Shown here in pieces: positions 35,304 to 43,165 of a DNA stretch of 56,394 nucleotides. The DNA is from Lawsonibacter sp. GTDB lineage: Bacteria > Bacillota > Clostridia > Oscillospirales > Oscillospiraceae. Location: positions 1 through 56,394 of the forward strand of contig JAAWIE010000007.1 in the NCBI GenBank assembly GCA_022796195.1, written 5' to 3'. Both the position numbers and the translations under genes were made by a program. The notes beneath the pieces are model-generated. The model searched no databases, was not told the origin of the DNA, and saw only the letters and a program-made list of their open reading frames with translations. How positions within the stretch are numbered: position 1 is the first letter of the stretch; each line of letters opens with the position of its first letter.

Positions 35304-36242
35304 TTATTTGGACTCCAGGTCCCTGACCAGAGGCGGGAGCTGTGAAATCATATTGTCCATATCCTCAAACATGGCGCTCTTAGTCGTACCCAGCCGGCTG
35401 GCGGAGTCGATATGATGGACCACCTTCTGGTAATGGGTCTTGATCTGGTCAAAAAACTGGCGTAAAACCCGCAATTCCTGCTGAGAGCTTTCAAGCACTT
35501 GGGCAATTCCGGTTTGCACCGATACGGTGCCCCCCGCCGCCGATGTAATCTTTTCAAAGCTCCCCTCGGTCTGGCCTACAATCGCAGTTCCCTCCCCCAA
35601 GGTATGCTGGGAGGAGGCGATACTCTGGCTGAGCTCGTTGGCGCGGCACTCCACCTCGCTCACATCGGTATCTACCTCTCCGGCCAGCTCCTTAATCTCT
35701 CCGGCCAGCTGCTTCACCTGGGCCGCGACCACAGAAAAACTCCGCCCCTCAGCGCCGGCCCGGGCCGCCTCAATGGATGCGTTGATGGCCAGAATATTGG
35801 TCTGTTCCGCGATGGAGACAATTTTGCCCAAGGACTGCTGAATCCCTCGGATCGCGGCTTCCAGCTGGGAAAAGGTCTCCGCCATGGAGGTGTAGGACTC
35901 CTGAATCTCTGCGGCGGTCTGGGCCAAGGCTACCATCTGGCCCCGGGCCTCGGAAACGGCCTGCCCAATCTCTCCCCGCACTAAGCCGAACTGCTCCACC
36001 GTCTCACTGATGTTCGAGAAGGAAGCCTCCAGATTCAGGAGCTTGGCCTGGAACTGGTCGCCATCGCTGAGCACATCGCCAAAGGAGTCGCCCACCTGGC
36101 TCAGTTCCCAGAGGGAGGCAACCTCTTTTTTGACCAGCTCCTGTTGATACTCCTTCAGGCTGTTCGCCACATGCAGGACGGGGTAAAGGCTTTTTTCCTC
36201 CGGAAGCTGGCCGGCCGCCTGGCCCTTTCTTTTAAACAACAT
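35304..36242 (-). CDS. Soluble methyl-accepting chemotaxis-type transducer
   Basis: A 312-aa protein with no membrane segment. It is nearly all helical and carries the conserved MCP signalling hairpin IVSIAEQTNILAINASIEAARAGAEG, then SFSVVAAQVKQLAGE, at about residues 140-185; this tip normally contacts CheA and CheW. There is no ligand-binding domain of its own. It starts 15 bases after the FIST-domain gene and shares its promoter, so the FIST protein probably provides the sensory input. No chemotaxis kinase or flagellar gene is in the window. Confidence 0.87.
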   Translation of the reverse strand: MLFKRKGQAAGQLPEEKSLYPVLHVANSLKEYQQELVKKEVASLWELSQVGDSFGDVLSDGDQFQAKLLNLEASFSNISETVEQFGLVRGEIGQAVSEARGQMVALAQTAAEIQESYTSMAETFSQLEAAIRGIQQSLGKIVSIAEQTNILAINASIEAARAGAEGRSFSVVAAQVKQLAGEIKELAGEVDTDVSEVECRANELSQSIASSQHTLGEGTAIVGQTEGSFEKITSAAGGTVSVQTGIAQVLESSQQELRVLRQFFDQIKTHYQKVVHHIDSASRLGTTKSAMFEDMDNMISQLPPLVRDLESK

Positions 36243-36257
36243 GGACGCACCCTCCCC

Positions 36258-37313
36258 TTACTCAAAGACCACGCAGGTCATAGACTGGTTGACAAACCGG
36301 TTATTGTAATGCTCGCCATATCCCACAAAACCGGCGTGATTTCCCAGCGCTGCCATATCCCGCAGATATTGCTGCATATAGCCGTGTTCGGAAAACAGCT
36401 TGTAACGGAACAGACAGTTAACTGAAAATACAGCGGAGCGTTGGGGGAAGTCGCGGCAGATCTCCTGAATGGTGTTCCGCACCACGGCCTGATAGTCGCC
36501 CAGCTCCAGAAGGATCAGCACGTCGGAGTCGTTCACCTGGCGGAAACAGGCCAGCGCGCCGCCGTTGACTTCCTTGATGGAGATGATGCAGGTGTCGTCC
36601 CCATTCAGCTTGCCAAAGGGGTTTTGGAAGGTACGGGTCAAAATTTCCTCATCCGTTACATGGAGGATATCTTTATACACCTGTTTGGCGCTCTTTCCGT
36701 TCAAAGCGCCCAGCATATAATTGGCCCGGTCTGTGTTGGAAGCCACAAAGCGGTAATCCCCCAACTGGTGGTAGATGTTCTCCTTATAGGTCTTGACCCG
36801 GCCATTCTGGTTGCGGATCAGTCCATAGGCCACAGCGTCCTGGTAGACCCGGCCGTTTGCAGACACCCGGCCCTGGTCTCCCGTACCGCCCATCAGGGAT
36901 ATACCCCGTTTATGGAGCGCGGTGTATATGGTGGTGAGGACACAGGCGTCGTTGCCGGAGCAGAAGTCGATACAAACCGTATCCCGGCTGGAGCCATTTA
37001 CCGTCTGAATATCTTGTTCCAGACGCTTTATGTACTTGACTGGCATGGTAGACGCCTGTTCCAGTACGTTGGCGGCGGCAGTTACTCCCTCTGAGAAAGC
37101 CGCCACCGCCACCCCGTTTTCCACAATACCGGATTGGTACCCCATCCCAATACATCCAATGCTGGGCACTCCGGGAAAACGCTTTTCCAGCGCCGCCACA
37201 TGCTCTTCAAACCGGTCGTTCGTAGAAAAAAGCATAATAAACTGGGGATGGTAGACGCCTTGGAGCGCCTCGTCCAGGCTTCCCCGCTGGCTCATGCCAA
37301 AAAACTGCTTCAT
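36258..37313 (-). CDS. FIST-domain sensory protein
   Basis: A 351-aa protein with FIST N and FIST C domains, a sensory fold thought to bind small ligands such as amino acids. Visible features are VYHPQFIMLFSTNDRF and VPSIGCIGMGYQSGIVENGVAVAAF in the N part. The C part has SLMGGTGDQGRVSANGRVYQ, NPFGKLNGDDTCIISI, FSVNCLFRYKLF and GFVGYGEHYNNRFVNQSM. It is cytoplasmic, with no membrane segment or output domain. The ATG has AGGAGG eight bases upstream and lies behind a consensus promoter. It is cotranscribed with the soluble MCP. Confidence 0.87.
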   Translation of the reverse strand: MKQFFGMSQRGSLDEALQGVYHPQFIMLFSTNDRFEEHVAALEKRFPGVPSIGCIGMGYQSGIVENGVAVAAFSEGVTAAANVLEQASTMPVKYIKRLEQDIQTVNGSSRDTVCIDFCSGNDACVLTTIYTALHKRGISLMGGTGDQGRVSANGRVYQDAVAYGLIRNQNGRVKTYKENIYHQLGDYRFVASNTDRANYMLGALNGKSAKQVYKDILHVTDEEILTRTFQNPFGKLNGDDTCIISIKEVNGGALACFRQVNDSDVLILLELGDYQAVVRNTIQEICRDFPQRSAVFSVNCLFRYKLFSEHGYMQQYLRDMAALGNHAGFVGYGEHYNNRFVNQSMTCVVFE

Positions 37314-38904: not shown

Positions 38905-38930
38905 CTTGTCCCGCCTCCTGTTATGCGAAA

Positions 38931-39031
38931 CGCCGCAAGAGGATACTTCTCCTCTCGCGGCGGCAGGGGCGGGGCACAGGCCCGCGTCTTACATAGAGCC
39001 GACGGGGGAAAAGGCGCATTTCCTCTTGCGG
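38931..39031 (-). promoter_or_regulatory. Alternative RNA structures (attenuator) in the ABC-F leader
   Basis: A hairpin of 13 bp with one mismatch (38931-38943 with 38950-38962) lies 12 bases before the ribosome-binding site. The 11 bases CCGCAAGAGGA on the mRNA, encoded at 39021-39031, are perfectly complementary to the 3' arm of that hairpin (38933-38943). The two pairings exclude each other, as in attenuators. The T-run after the hairpin is weak, so termination or translation control are both possible. Confidence 0.65.
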
Positions 39032-39087
39032 ACCCACAACAGAACCGAGCCGTTTCTACGGCCCTCGCAGTCTATTCTGTCATGGAA

Positions 39088-39108
39088 TCAACAAGTGGTA
39101 TTGCGCAT
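39088..39108 (-). CDS. Six-residue leader peptide of the ABC-F gene
   Basis: ATG CGC AAT ACC ACT TGT TGA encodes MRNTTC. GGAGG is seven bases upstream of the ATG, a strong initiation site. It lies about 27 bases after the predicted transcription start and about 57 bases before the alternative-pairing sequence. Short leader peptides on which antibiotic-bound ribosomes stall are established for ABC-F genes such as vmlR, vga(A) and msr(D); the role here is inference from layout. Confidence 0.6.
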   Translation of the reverse strand: MRNTTC

Positions 39109-39141
39109 CTTCCCGCCTCCGATCTTTCTTTTGTGTCACAC

Positions 39142-39171
39142 AGCATACCACACAGTACGCAGTTTTGTCAA
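39142..39171 (-). promoter_or_regulatory. Promoter of the ABC-F leader transcript
   Basis: On the minus strand TTGACA (39166-39171) and TATGCT (39142-39147) are 18 bases apart. The -35 box overlaps the TGA stop of the upstream antiporter gene. Predicted start is near 39135, leaving a leader of about 230 bases. Confidence 0.7.
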
Positions 39172-40544: not shown

Positions 40545-41582
40545 TCATGAGGCAAATTCCGCCATTGCGTTTTTGTAAGTCTCCAGGTCCGCCGCCCATT
40601 CCGGATCGGCCCAATCCGTTTTCAGCTGGGGCCGGGCGGTCTGGAGAATCTGGGCAAAGTAGCGGCTGAATCGCTCCGCCCCCAGTGCGTCCAGATGGTG
40701 GGCATCGTAGAACAGGCTCTCATTCAAGCCAATATCGGCGTAGTCCAAATTAAAGTCGTGGAAGGGCACACCGTATTTGGCGGCAGTGGCCTCCACTGTA
40801 TTCAGCATCGCCTTCTCCTCCAGCTCCAGGTTCGAGGGACTCTTTACCAGCCACAGTTCCACCCCCTCATCCTGACACAGTTTGATGATCTCTTCCAGCC
40901 AGAATTGATTTTTGTCCAGCAGGGGCGTTTTACCGGTAATCCCGCCTGCATCGGGCTTGGGGAAGGAGTCCTCTTTGGGGGGCAGCATGACAAACCCCTT
41001 ATAGGGGTCCCGGGCCCGGGCGCGGTCAAAGGTAAAGTCCGATTTTTTCAGGTCGTTCCAGCGGCTGTGGTACTTCATAAAGTTGAACAGGCAGGAAAGC
41101 CGGCCCTCCAGGTCGGGGGCGGACTGCGACGACAGTCTGACCTTGTTCCAGGACAGAGGGATATCGTCCATATAGGAGTAGGTGACCCCGTCGTCCTTCT
41201 CCCCAACGTAATATTCCTTGTCGCCGAAGGCCATCCGGCATTCCACCACGACAAGAGCGGGGGACTGGGTCTTAAACGCCTCTTTGATATAGGTGTAGGT
41301 GGCCCAGAGGGGCTGCTGCTGGGTGGCAAAGACGTAGCTTTTAATTCCGGTCTCCGCCCAGATCTCCAGCGGACTAAACGCGGCATAGGCGTGACTGGGT
41401 CCGAAGAACATCACCTCAAACTGATTCTCCTTCTCGTTGTAAAATCCGCTGACCTTGTTGGTCATATCCCAGGGCGGGGCCAGGGATTTTCGCTCCAGCA
41501 CCCGGTTCAGGGGAAGCAGGCACAGCCCCAGCAGAACCAGAAATATCAGGGTCTTGCCCAAAAATTTCAATTTATCATTCAT
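40545..41582 (-). CDS. SGNH/DltD-like membrane-anchored acyl transfer partner
   Basis: A 345-aa protein with one N-terminal membrane anchor (about residues 6-26, KTLIFLVLLGLCLLPLN) and an external SGNH-hydrolase-like domain. The likely nucleophile is in FFGPSHAYAAFSPLEIW, and the Asp-His pair is in YDAHHLDALGAERF. Start MNDKLKFLG at 41582 is eight bases after the MBOAT stop. Such proteins receive acyl groups from the MBOAT partner and pass them to a cell-wall or exported polysaccharide. The acceptor polymer here is not indicated by any neighbouring glycosyltransferase. Confidence 0.82.
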   Translation of the reverse strand: MNDKLKFLGKTLIFLVLLGLCLLPLNRVLERKSLAPPWDMTNKVSGFYNEKENQFEVMFFGPSHAYAAFSPLEIWAETGIKSYVFATQQQPLWATYTYIKEAFKTQSPALVVVECRMAFGDKEYYVGEKDDGVTYSYMDDIPLSWNKVRLSSQSAPDLEGRLSCLFNFMKYHSRWNDLKKSDFTFDRARARDPYKGFVMLPPKEDSFPKPDAGGITGKTPLLDKNQFWLEEIIKLCQDEGVELWLVKSPSNLELEEKAMLNTVEATAAKYGVPFHDFNLDYADIGLNESLFYDAHHLDALGAERFSRYFAQILQTARPQLKTDWADPEWAADLETYKNAMAEFAS

Positions 41583-41590
41583 GGTATACC

Positions 41591-43033
41591 TCAAAATGCA
41601 AAGTAGATGAACGCCGCTTCGGAGTAGCCTGGCCCGTAGACTCCGAAGACCAGAATAACCAGCGTCAGCCCCAGATAGAGGCACCACCGTACCGGCCAGA
41701 CCAGCCCGGAGACCAGAGCAATCCCGTCCCCCTTCTCGTCGGCCAGATCAAAGAGAAACAGCACAAGCAGGGCACCTGCCAGAAAAACCGCCTCAACAAC
41801 CCCGGGATTCAAAGCGGCTAAAGCAGTCCGGCAATACTGGAGCGGCTCCCCAATTCCCCAGAGCGAATGGCGGAGGATATATGCCGCCTCTTCTATACTT
41901 CCGGCCCGGAAAAACACCCATAGGGCGCTGACCACCAGAAAGGTCATTCCACATTGCAGAACCCGGACGGGCAGACCCCACGTCCTGCCGGAGCGGCGGA
42001 AGAGAAATTCCACGTTCATCACCAGCGCATGGAGCAGGCCCCACACCACAAAGGACCAGTCCGCCCCATGCCACAGACCGCTGAGGGTGAAGGTGAGCAG
42101 CACAAACAGACACTTCCTGGCCGCTCCCCGCCGGTTGCCCCCCAGAGGGATGTATACATACTCCCGAAACCAGCTGGTCAGGGAGATGTGCCACCGCTTC
42201 CAAAACTCGGTGACCGAGCAGGCAAAATAGGGCCGCTTGAAGTTGGCCATCAGCTCTATGCCCATCATTCTAGCACAGCCCCGGGCAATGTCGGAGTAAC
42301 CGCCGAAATCGCAGTAAATTTGAATGGCAAAGGCACAAGTAGCCAGCACCAGCGCACCGCCCTCGTAGCTGCCCGGATTTTTGTACACCGGGTCTACAAT
42401 CAGCAGAGCCAGCTGATCCGCAACCACCATTTTCTTGAAGAAACCCCAGGCCATCCGTTTGGCCCCGAGCGAGGCGTTTTGATATGTGAACCGGTGTTCC
42501 TCCTTCAGCTGGGGCAGAAGGCTGGAGGCTTTTTCAATGGGACCGGCCACCAACTGGGGAAAGAAGGAGACAAACAGGGCAAAGGTGACAAAATCCCGCT
42601 CCGGCTTCAGCCTGCCTTTGTAGATGTCCAGGGTGTAGCTGAGAGTCTGGAAGGTATAAAAGGAGATGCCCACCGGCAGGATGATGTCCAGCGCCGGGGC
42701 AGAGAAGGGGATGGAGAGCGCACGGCACAGGGCGGTAAGACTTTCGCCGAAAAAATTCAGGTATTTGAAGAAAAACAGCAGCCCTAAATTCATGGTCAGA
42801 CTTACCGCCAGCAGCCACCCCTTCCGTTGGGGCCATCGCACCATCCCCAACCCGCAGAAGTAATCCACCAGGGTGGAAAACAGGATGAGGACGATGAATT
42901 CCGGCTTCCAGCACATGTAAAAATAGCAGCTGGCGGCAAGCAGCAGATATTTTCGGAATCGGAAGGGCAGGGCATAGTAGAGGAGAAAAACACAGGGGAA
43001 GAAAATCAGGAAGGGCAGGGAGTTAAACAGCAT
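41591..43033 (-). CDS. MBOAT-family O-acyltransferase (AlgI/DltB-like)
   Basis: A 480-aa polytopic membrane acyltransferase. Diagnostic motifs are ILPVGISFYTFQTLSYTLDI, FGGYSDIARGCARMMG, FWKRWHISLTSWFREYVYIPLGGN and SGLWHGADWSFVVWG with the catalytic His. It moves acetyl or other acyl groups across the membrane. MLFNSLPFLIF at 43033 is the start because GGAGG lies seven bases upstream; the upstream in-frame stretch reads as intergenic. It is directly followed by the SGNH gene, the usual two-gene acylation module. Confidence 0.92.
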   Translation of the reverse strand: MLFNSLPFLIFFPCVFLLYYALPFRFRKYLLLAASCYFYMCWKPEFIVLILFSTLVDYFCGLGMVRWPQRKGWLLAVSLTMNLGLLFFFKYLNFFGESLTALCRALSIPFSAPALDIILPVGISFYTFQTLSYTLDIYKGRLKPERDFVTFALFVSFFPQLVAGPIEKASSLLPQLKEEHRFTYQNASLGAKRMAWGFFKKMVVADQLALLIVDPVYKNPGSYEGGALVLATCAFAIQIYCDFGGYSDIARGCARMMGIELMANFKRPYFACSVTEFWKRWHISLTSWFREYVYIPLGGNRRGAARKCLFVLLTFTLSGLWHGADWSFVVWGLLHALVMNVEFLFRRSGRTWGLPVRVLQCGMTFLVVSALWVFFRAGSIEEAAYILRHSLWGIGEPLQYCRTALAALNPGVVEAVFLAGALLVLFLFDLADEKGDGIALVSGLVWPVRWCLYLGLTLVILVFGVYGPGYSEAAFIYFAF

Positions 43034-43136
43034 AAGCGCCTCCAAGTTGCACAGTAGGATTGGGAACCAGTATATCACAAGGCCGAACGGAAGAAAAGAC
43101 AAGTTTTTGTCAATCTTTGCTTCGCCGCTGTTTTTC

Positions 43137-43165
43137 TTGCCCAACGGTGTAAAAGCTGGTATACT
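43137..43165 (+). promoter_or_regulatory. Promoter of polA
   Basis: TTGCCC (43137-43142) and TATACT (43160-43165) are 17 bases apart, about 30 bases before the ribosome-binding site of polA. Confidence 0.6.

Follow-up and report, generated by a model that had tools for sequence, protein, structure and literature searches.

A putative drug-switched attenuator in the leaders of Lsa-like ABC-F genes of Clostridia

Is the ABC-F gene on a contig of Lawsonibacter sp. (JAAWIE010000007.1) switched by its own leader, and if so, what does the leader sense? The window, i.e., the whole stretch of 56,394 nucleotides analyzed here, carries this gene on its minus strand (38904-37426, 492 amino acids), and an earlier note, made from the sequence alone, had proposed that a leader peptide and alternative hairpins control it. 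With 421.3 bits, the protein passes the curated cut-off of 380 for NCBIfam NF000355 (ribosomal-protection-like ABC-F), and it scores 626.3 bits over its full length on NF000167 (Lsa), which is below the curated cut-off of 750. The designation "Lsa-type" therefore has to be softened to "Lsa-like," and judging from these profile scores the protein is no named Lsa. On the CplR model it reaches only 129 bits versus 626 on the Lsa model, and its best relative with a solved structure is LsaA of Enterococcus faecalis (7nhk, 411 bits). The following sections indicate that the leader is very probably an attenuator that is operated by ribosomes and switched by a drug, and that the element held constant in evolution may be an RNA arm rather than a peptide.

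Layout of the leader and its three pairings

All elements of the leader are minus-strand features. The first is a promoter-like site, TTGACA-18-TATGCT with an extended -10 TG (39171-39142), which matches the consensus at 10 of 12 positions, where shuffled sequences lead one to expect 0.1 such sites, and it is followed by the Shine-Dalgarno (SD) region GGAGGCGGGAAG (39109-39120) and the six-codon open reading frame (ORF) MRNTTC with its stop (39108-39088), i.e., exactly the short gene with a strong ribosome-binding site that had been described. Further downstream, a 13-bp hairpin with one G-U pair and a stability of -25.7 kcal/mol is formed by arm 3 (38962-38950) and arm 4 (38943-38931), and a short U-tract, TTT (38928-38930), comes after it. 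This hairpin is present as claimed and stands directly before the gene, but it ends 26 nt from the ABC-F start codon and leaves the SD region CAGGAGGCGGG (38920-38910) uncovered; the predicted partner of that region in the fold is an anti-SD segment at 38973-38964. The alternative to the hairpin uses the upstream copy of the same arm, arm 2 (39031-39021), which can pair with arm 4 over a perfect 11 bp (39031-39021 with 38943-38933; the antiterminator). This pairing is the sole inverted repeat listed by a repeat finder between 38800 and 39250, the 13-bp hairpin with its one G-U pair being absent from that list.

A third pairing had been overlooked. The final codons of the leader ORF (arm 1, 39098-39091) pair in the predicted fold with 39029-39022 within arm 2, a helix that conservation likewise supports and that would act as anti-antiterminator, so that the three-pairing switch is complete: the pairings 1:2, 3:4, and 2:4 are all possible in the leader, as in the attenuators of VmlR and CplR. 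The full leader folds with -117.6 kcal/mol (z -6.75), a value equalled by none of 200 shuffles, and a scan with Rfam at the gathering score returned no match, either for the window leader or for those of 7 relatives that were scanned as well.

From this layout we infer the following course of events. Without a drug, ribosomes would finish the short ORF and leave, arm 1 would pair with arm 2, and the 3:4 hairpin would form downstream and end transcription, while in any RNA that is read through, the SD region of the ABC-F gene would stay in structure. A drug that blocks the first peptide bonds, for which a lincosamide, a pleuromutilin, or a streptogramin A is a candidate by analogy with VmlR and CplR, would hold a ribosome at or near the AUG and cover arm 1; arm 2 would then be free to pair with arm 4, the hairpin would not form, and the ABC-F gene would be made. 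Experiments described for the attenuators of VmlR and CplR show them to work by this switch (PMC9226507, PMC10201436). For VmlR, a 30S toeprint at +16 and the stalling of initiating ribosomes by lincomycin and retapamulin are described (PMC9226507), on account of which a ribosome held at or near the AUG would be expected to cover arm 1 here as well.

The mechanism class is already known, and the Lsa-like leaders are a large branch of it. Like the vmlR leader of Bacillus subtilis, which according to its description responds to drugs that stall initiating ribosomes, the leader is predicted to combine an ORF-containing anti-antiterminator, an antiterminator, and a candidate intrinsic terminator with a further structure that sequesters the SD (PMC9226507); the vmlR ORF has three codons and is reported to lie in a bulge, whereas the ORF here usually has six or seven codons and its end is arm 1. 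With cplR of Clostridioides difficile it shares a clostridial ABC-F gene, a short ORF before it, and a hairpin that, as described for cplR, would act at both transcription and translation. CplR, however, is one of the ARE1 proteins and thus of a different subfamily, and the cplR terminator hairpin itself holds the SD (PMC10201436). Upstream ORFs are given there as MIN for VmlR and MR[I/M] for CplR, and as computed by uORF4u they are MK[L/Q] for VmlR2 and MAGN for LsaA (PMC10201436). The lsaA gene of E. faecalis thus also has a short ORF upstream, and its MAGN differs from the M-x-x-x-[ST]-C found here, a comparison that concerns the ORF consensus alone.

Conservation and covariation among related leaders

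The leader was compared with 149 distinct leaders of at least 250 nt (from 152 distinct ones), which were taken from 63 loci on contigs and from matches in 64 genomes of the genus and 300 of the family. Omitted were five of the 63 loci with a too short upstream region or a partial match (L032, L042, L066, L069, and L071), one genus match with a truncated gene (G038), and three family matches (G344, G232, and G286). A strict ORF pattern, M-x(2-4)-[STA]-C-[KR]? plus an SD, is found in 87 of the 149 leaders, as against a mean of 0.2 and a maximum of 2 in 20 rounds of dinucleotide shuffling; another 21 leaders have the ORF MK, MR, MRK, or MRN, 24 have another short ORF, and in 17 none was found. 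In order of decreasing identity to the window protein, the strict pattern occurs in 23/25 leaders at 74% or more, 5/12 at 60 to 73%, 54/101 at 50 to 59%, and 5/11 below 50%. The 25 closest leaders, the window counted, encode MRKTTC, MRNTTC, MRKTAC, MRKFSC, or MRKFPC, and all 25 have a promoter-like site with at least 10/12 matches 30 to 35 nt before the ORF; if 9/12 matches suffice, 96 of 128 leaders from the full collection have such a site. A U-tailed hairpin was detected in 115 of the 132 leaders with any ORF, the other 17 having none that passes the thresholds.

The pairings are conserved together with the ORF. RNAalifold recovered the ORF-containing stem-loop and the 3:4 hairpin unaided from the 25 close leaders, in which 93.1% of the cells of the named structure are paired versus 36 to 53% with slid partners, and 97.7% in the helix of arms 1 and 2. 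Only 3 of 500 shuffles reached the covariation score of this structure, but 195 of 500 had as many pairs with a change on either side, so that this part of the control is weak. For the 2:4 pairing alone, 91.5% of the cells are paired versus 46 to 60% with slid partners, and the covariation score was equalled by 83 of 500 shuffles. The perfect 11-bp match of the window copy is shortened in relatives, the innermost pair being absent in 16 of the 25 leaders and an outer pair in 3. The anti-SD helix is partly kept (79.5% of cells paired), two of its pairs in only 4 of the 25.

Between lineages, each leader's own partner was compared with those of other leaders in a swap test of 115 of the 149 leaders, from which the 17 without an ORF and the 17 without a hairpin above the thresholds had been dropped. 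For 1:2, in which 30 nt from codon 2 onward span the whole stem-loop and thus more than arm 1 alone, the own downstream region gave -23.9 and a foreign one -18.1 kcal/mol, and the own region beat the foreign mean in 105/115 leaders (101 in the reverse direction). The corresponding values for 2:4 are -15.6 and -13.7 kcal/mol, with the own partner better in 92/115 (reverse, 83) and among the best 5% of foreign pairings in only 15/115 (reverse, 7). One and the same arm-2 site serves both 1:2 and 2:4 in 98 of the 115 leaders, as compared with a mean of 65.2 and a maximum of 73 in 20 rounds in which the region was shuffled, and the own pairing beats all 20 region shuffles in 68 leaders for 1:2, in 52 for 2:4, and in 39 for both.

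Single bases follow the same logic. In the 87 strict-pattern leaders, the penultimate codon specifies Ser, Thr, or Ala; a C as its third base faces a G in arm 2 in 27 of 27 cases, and a T faces A 39 times and G 21 times. Where there were several candidates for arm 2, the one with the best match was used; the pattern is unchanged, with no C opposite A, in those 42 of 60 leaders that have a single candidate. The terminator arm and arm 2 combine as C:G in 28, C:A in 5, T:A in 29, and T:G in 12 of 74 leaders, 13 of the 87 without the terminator-arm pattern being left out. On a protein tree of 60, all 13 arm-2 changes from G to A fall where the codon base is T, for which the chance is estimated at about 0.013 if 72% of the tips carry T, and only 2 of 8 changes of the codon base share a branch with a change in arm 2. 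As far as these alignments indicate, relatedness reduces the covariation signal but does not remove it, the pairing signal appears stronger between lineages than within the 25 close leaders, and the signal per leader appears weaker for 2:4 than for 1:2.

These data bear directly on a further alternative, namely, that the GC-rich 5' leader is constitutive and has no regulatory role, its repeated arms having been left behind by a duplication. Such a leader would agree with the window fold, which does not switch at equilibrium (see below), but a retained ORF and SD, with the strict pattern still present in more than half of the leaders at 50 to 59% identity, and the conservation of the promoter-like site, of arm complementarity, and of covariation make it scarcely credible. 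The earlier note had made its proposal dependent on induction by the drugs and, at the level of sequence, on conservation of the peptide and of the complementary 11-mer in orthologous leaders; the ORF is conserved, and the arm is conserved and covaries, which lends the proposal support short of proof.

Matches to the ABC-F gene at an E value of 1e-100 or better occur in 40 of the 64 genus genomes and in 79 of the 300 sampled family genomes, and a model of the stem-loop, R1, matches in 39 of the 64 genus genomes (E 0.001). According to a comparison of coordinates by eye, 36 of these 39 matches immediately precede a full ABC-F match, two precede a gene that is truncated where the contig stops (G038 and G040), and one stands at a contig end (G025, whose contig ends 84 bases past the match); conversely, three of the 40 genomes with the gene lack an R1 match (G008, G021, and G024). 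The idea that the leader marks a wider regulon was rejected: in the genome of the window, R1 has no match at an E value of up to 1 other than the present leader and the echo of it on the reverse strand, and the genus matches sit upstream of the ABC-F gene, reverse-strand echoes and G025 aside.

Several neighbors of the gene were recorded as well. Downstream of it, a FIST-domain protein (36258-37313) adjoins an MCP-signalling protein (35304-36242), and in Flintibacter muris a 6A RNA (Rfam RF02925) is located downstream of the ABC-F gene (L022:4162-4212). On the other side of the leader, the ORF of an MBOAT acyltransferase (41591-43144) overlaps a 380-residue ORF (40545-41687) for which no Pfam match was found; the arrangement (40545-43144) resembles that of cell-surface acylation operons.

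Candidate terminator, predicted SD hiding, and folding around a stalled ribosome

At which level does the leader act? If control were exerted on translation alone, the SD of the gene would be hidden by the hairpin together with the anti-SD helix, and in the organism of the window the hairpin would not serve as a terminator. In favor of this explanation, the U-tract of the window copy consists of TTT only, and the ABC-F SD region is 0.82 paired in the fold of the full leader. Moreover, a poly-U mutant of CplR is described as still being drug regulated (PMC10201436). However, 20 of the 25 close leaders retain at least 5 T after the hairpin, and stalling scarcely lowers the pairing of the SD (from 0.82 to 0.82 or 0.78). 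A trade-off between the length of the U-run and the strength of SD pairing was considered for the sub-clade of the window and rejected, since the two are uncorrelated in the 25 leaders (rho 0.11, P = 0.59). Translational control without termination seems rather unlikely, and an attenuator whose hairpin would end transcription is the preferred reading.

Folding around a stalled ribosome gave a mixed answer. The footprint was imposed on the transcript up to the U-tract, and folding was computed at equilibrium. In the window leader, the hairpin has a probability of 0.93 to 1.00 and the antiterminator of 0.00 to 0.07 at every stall site, whereas among the 25 leaders, antiterminator values above 0.5 were obtained for 4 when the ribosome was placed at the AUG, for 10 when it was placed at codon 3, and for 1 when it was placed at codon 6. 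The shift that had been anticipated upon folding with and without a ribosome is thus seen in some of the 25 leaders and never in the window copy, and as a proof of the switch, equilibrium folding fails for the window copy and most of the 25 leaders. For the window copy, either cotranscriptional folding matters, or it acts mainly at translation, or its switch is weakened.

A separate element is visible by eye in 17 of the 25 close leaders, namely, a CTTCCCC segment after arm 2 (alignment columns 128 to 142). It could pair with the SD of the leader ORF or with that of the gene and might represent a second switch; the exact segment is absent from the window (about 39019-39000).

Peptide or RNA arm

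Antibiotic-induced stalling, the logic that had been attributed to the leader, is supported by the sequence comparisons, but the emphasis on the peptide has to be refined, because the comparison points to the distance from the AUG to the arm as the property that is held. For ErmCL, and for MsrD with macrolides, the drug stalls the ribosome at a peptide-specific codon. The same attenuator might correspondingly have the nascent peptide as its sensor, with M-x-x-x-S-C as an arrest sequence and a stall at a particular codon. The peptide pattern is indeed widespread, in many leaders codon 2 encodes R or K and codon 3 encodes N or K, and the antiterminator is released more often when the ribosome stalls at codon 3 than when it stalls at the AUG (10 versus 4 of 25 leaders). 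That the ORF sequence can matter is also indicated by the MRK variant of VmlR, which is reported to be induced less than MIN (PMC9226507).

Against an arrest peptide, the final residues change along with the terminator arm. In leaders with CCCGC or CTCGC in this arm, in place of CCTGC or CTTGC, a number of ORFs terminate with Ser-Arg (e.g., MRNNSRR and MYNTSRK), Leu-Ala (MTSYLA and MISFLA), or Pro-Ala rather than with Ser-Cys, which is kept in some leaders with such an arm (e.g., MINTSC and MRMISC). The arm-1 core is located at +13 in 80 of the 87 strict-pattern leaders, a distance that the pattern itself partly dictates. A freer test is provided by the 21 ORFs of two or three codons (MK, MR, MRK, and MRN), for in 18 of these 21 leaders, with 1.0 expected, the core now lies behind the stop but still begins at its usual distance of 12 to 15 nt, counted from the A of the AUG. 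Among the 24 other ORFs, it is found at +12 or +13 in 11 and is absent in 13. Altogether, the stop of the ORF ranges from +6 to +21.

The comparison of leaders suggests that the last residues of the ORF are set by RNA pairing and that the distance between AUG and arm is the property that is held; the arm thus appears to be more important than the peptide, and the Ser-Cys ending would be the terminator arm read as protein. A sensor that recognizes the nascent peptide is therefore distinctly unlikely, and the sensor is likely a ribosome stalled near the start codon. Some effect of the peptide is nevertheless possible, since the arm does not account for the bias toward R/K in the second and N/K in the third place and the MRK variant of VmlR was induced less.

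The same design precedes a mobile gene. In the leader of the plasmid-borne lsa(E) of E. faecalis pE15 (L183; NZ_KT448821.1, 138-345), an ORF MYNFSC with an SD is followed by arm 2, GCAAGAAAGTTA, and by a U-tailed hairpin ending with TTCTTGCGGCTTTT. The encoded protein is 49% identical to that of the window, and the distance from hairpin to gene is about 155 nt, unlike the 26 nt in the window. A search with the 499 bases upstream of lsa(E) gave matches in 111 plasmid records, of which 106 are from Enterococcus; in 102 of the 111, the match spans 80% or more of the query. In the leader of lsa(B) (L184), such an ORF was looked for and not found, and that of a Paenibacillus lsa-like gene (L185) has the arms and an ambiguous candidate ORF. 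A description of the lsa(E) leader, whose name is unsearchable as written, was not found in the open-licence literature, nor was one of the peptides MRKTTC, MRNTTC, and MKSASC; both results are weak evidence for novelty.

Quite possibly, although we advance this only tentatively, the Lsa-like leaders of Clostridia, including that of the mobile lsa(E), form a large undescribed class that senses the place of the ribosome and not the peptide, with an ORF free to vary between 2 and 7 codons. A ribosome held at the AUG or beside it would, with its front edge, cover the RNA arm about 12 to 18 nt downstream. Our confidence in this reading is lowered because no more than 4 of the 25 close leaders release the antiterminator when the ribosome stalls at the AUG.

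The leaders add a broad family to the few ABC-F attenuators that have been studied, and leaders of this design are found in many gut bacteria as well as before a plasmid resistance gene. A rule of fixed AUG-to-arm distance and free ORF length could explain why peptides of upstream ORFs look conserved without having an arrest function. It is predicted, furthermore, that the transferable lsa(E) is drug inducible, in which case tests performed without induction could under-report this resistance gene.
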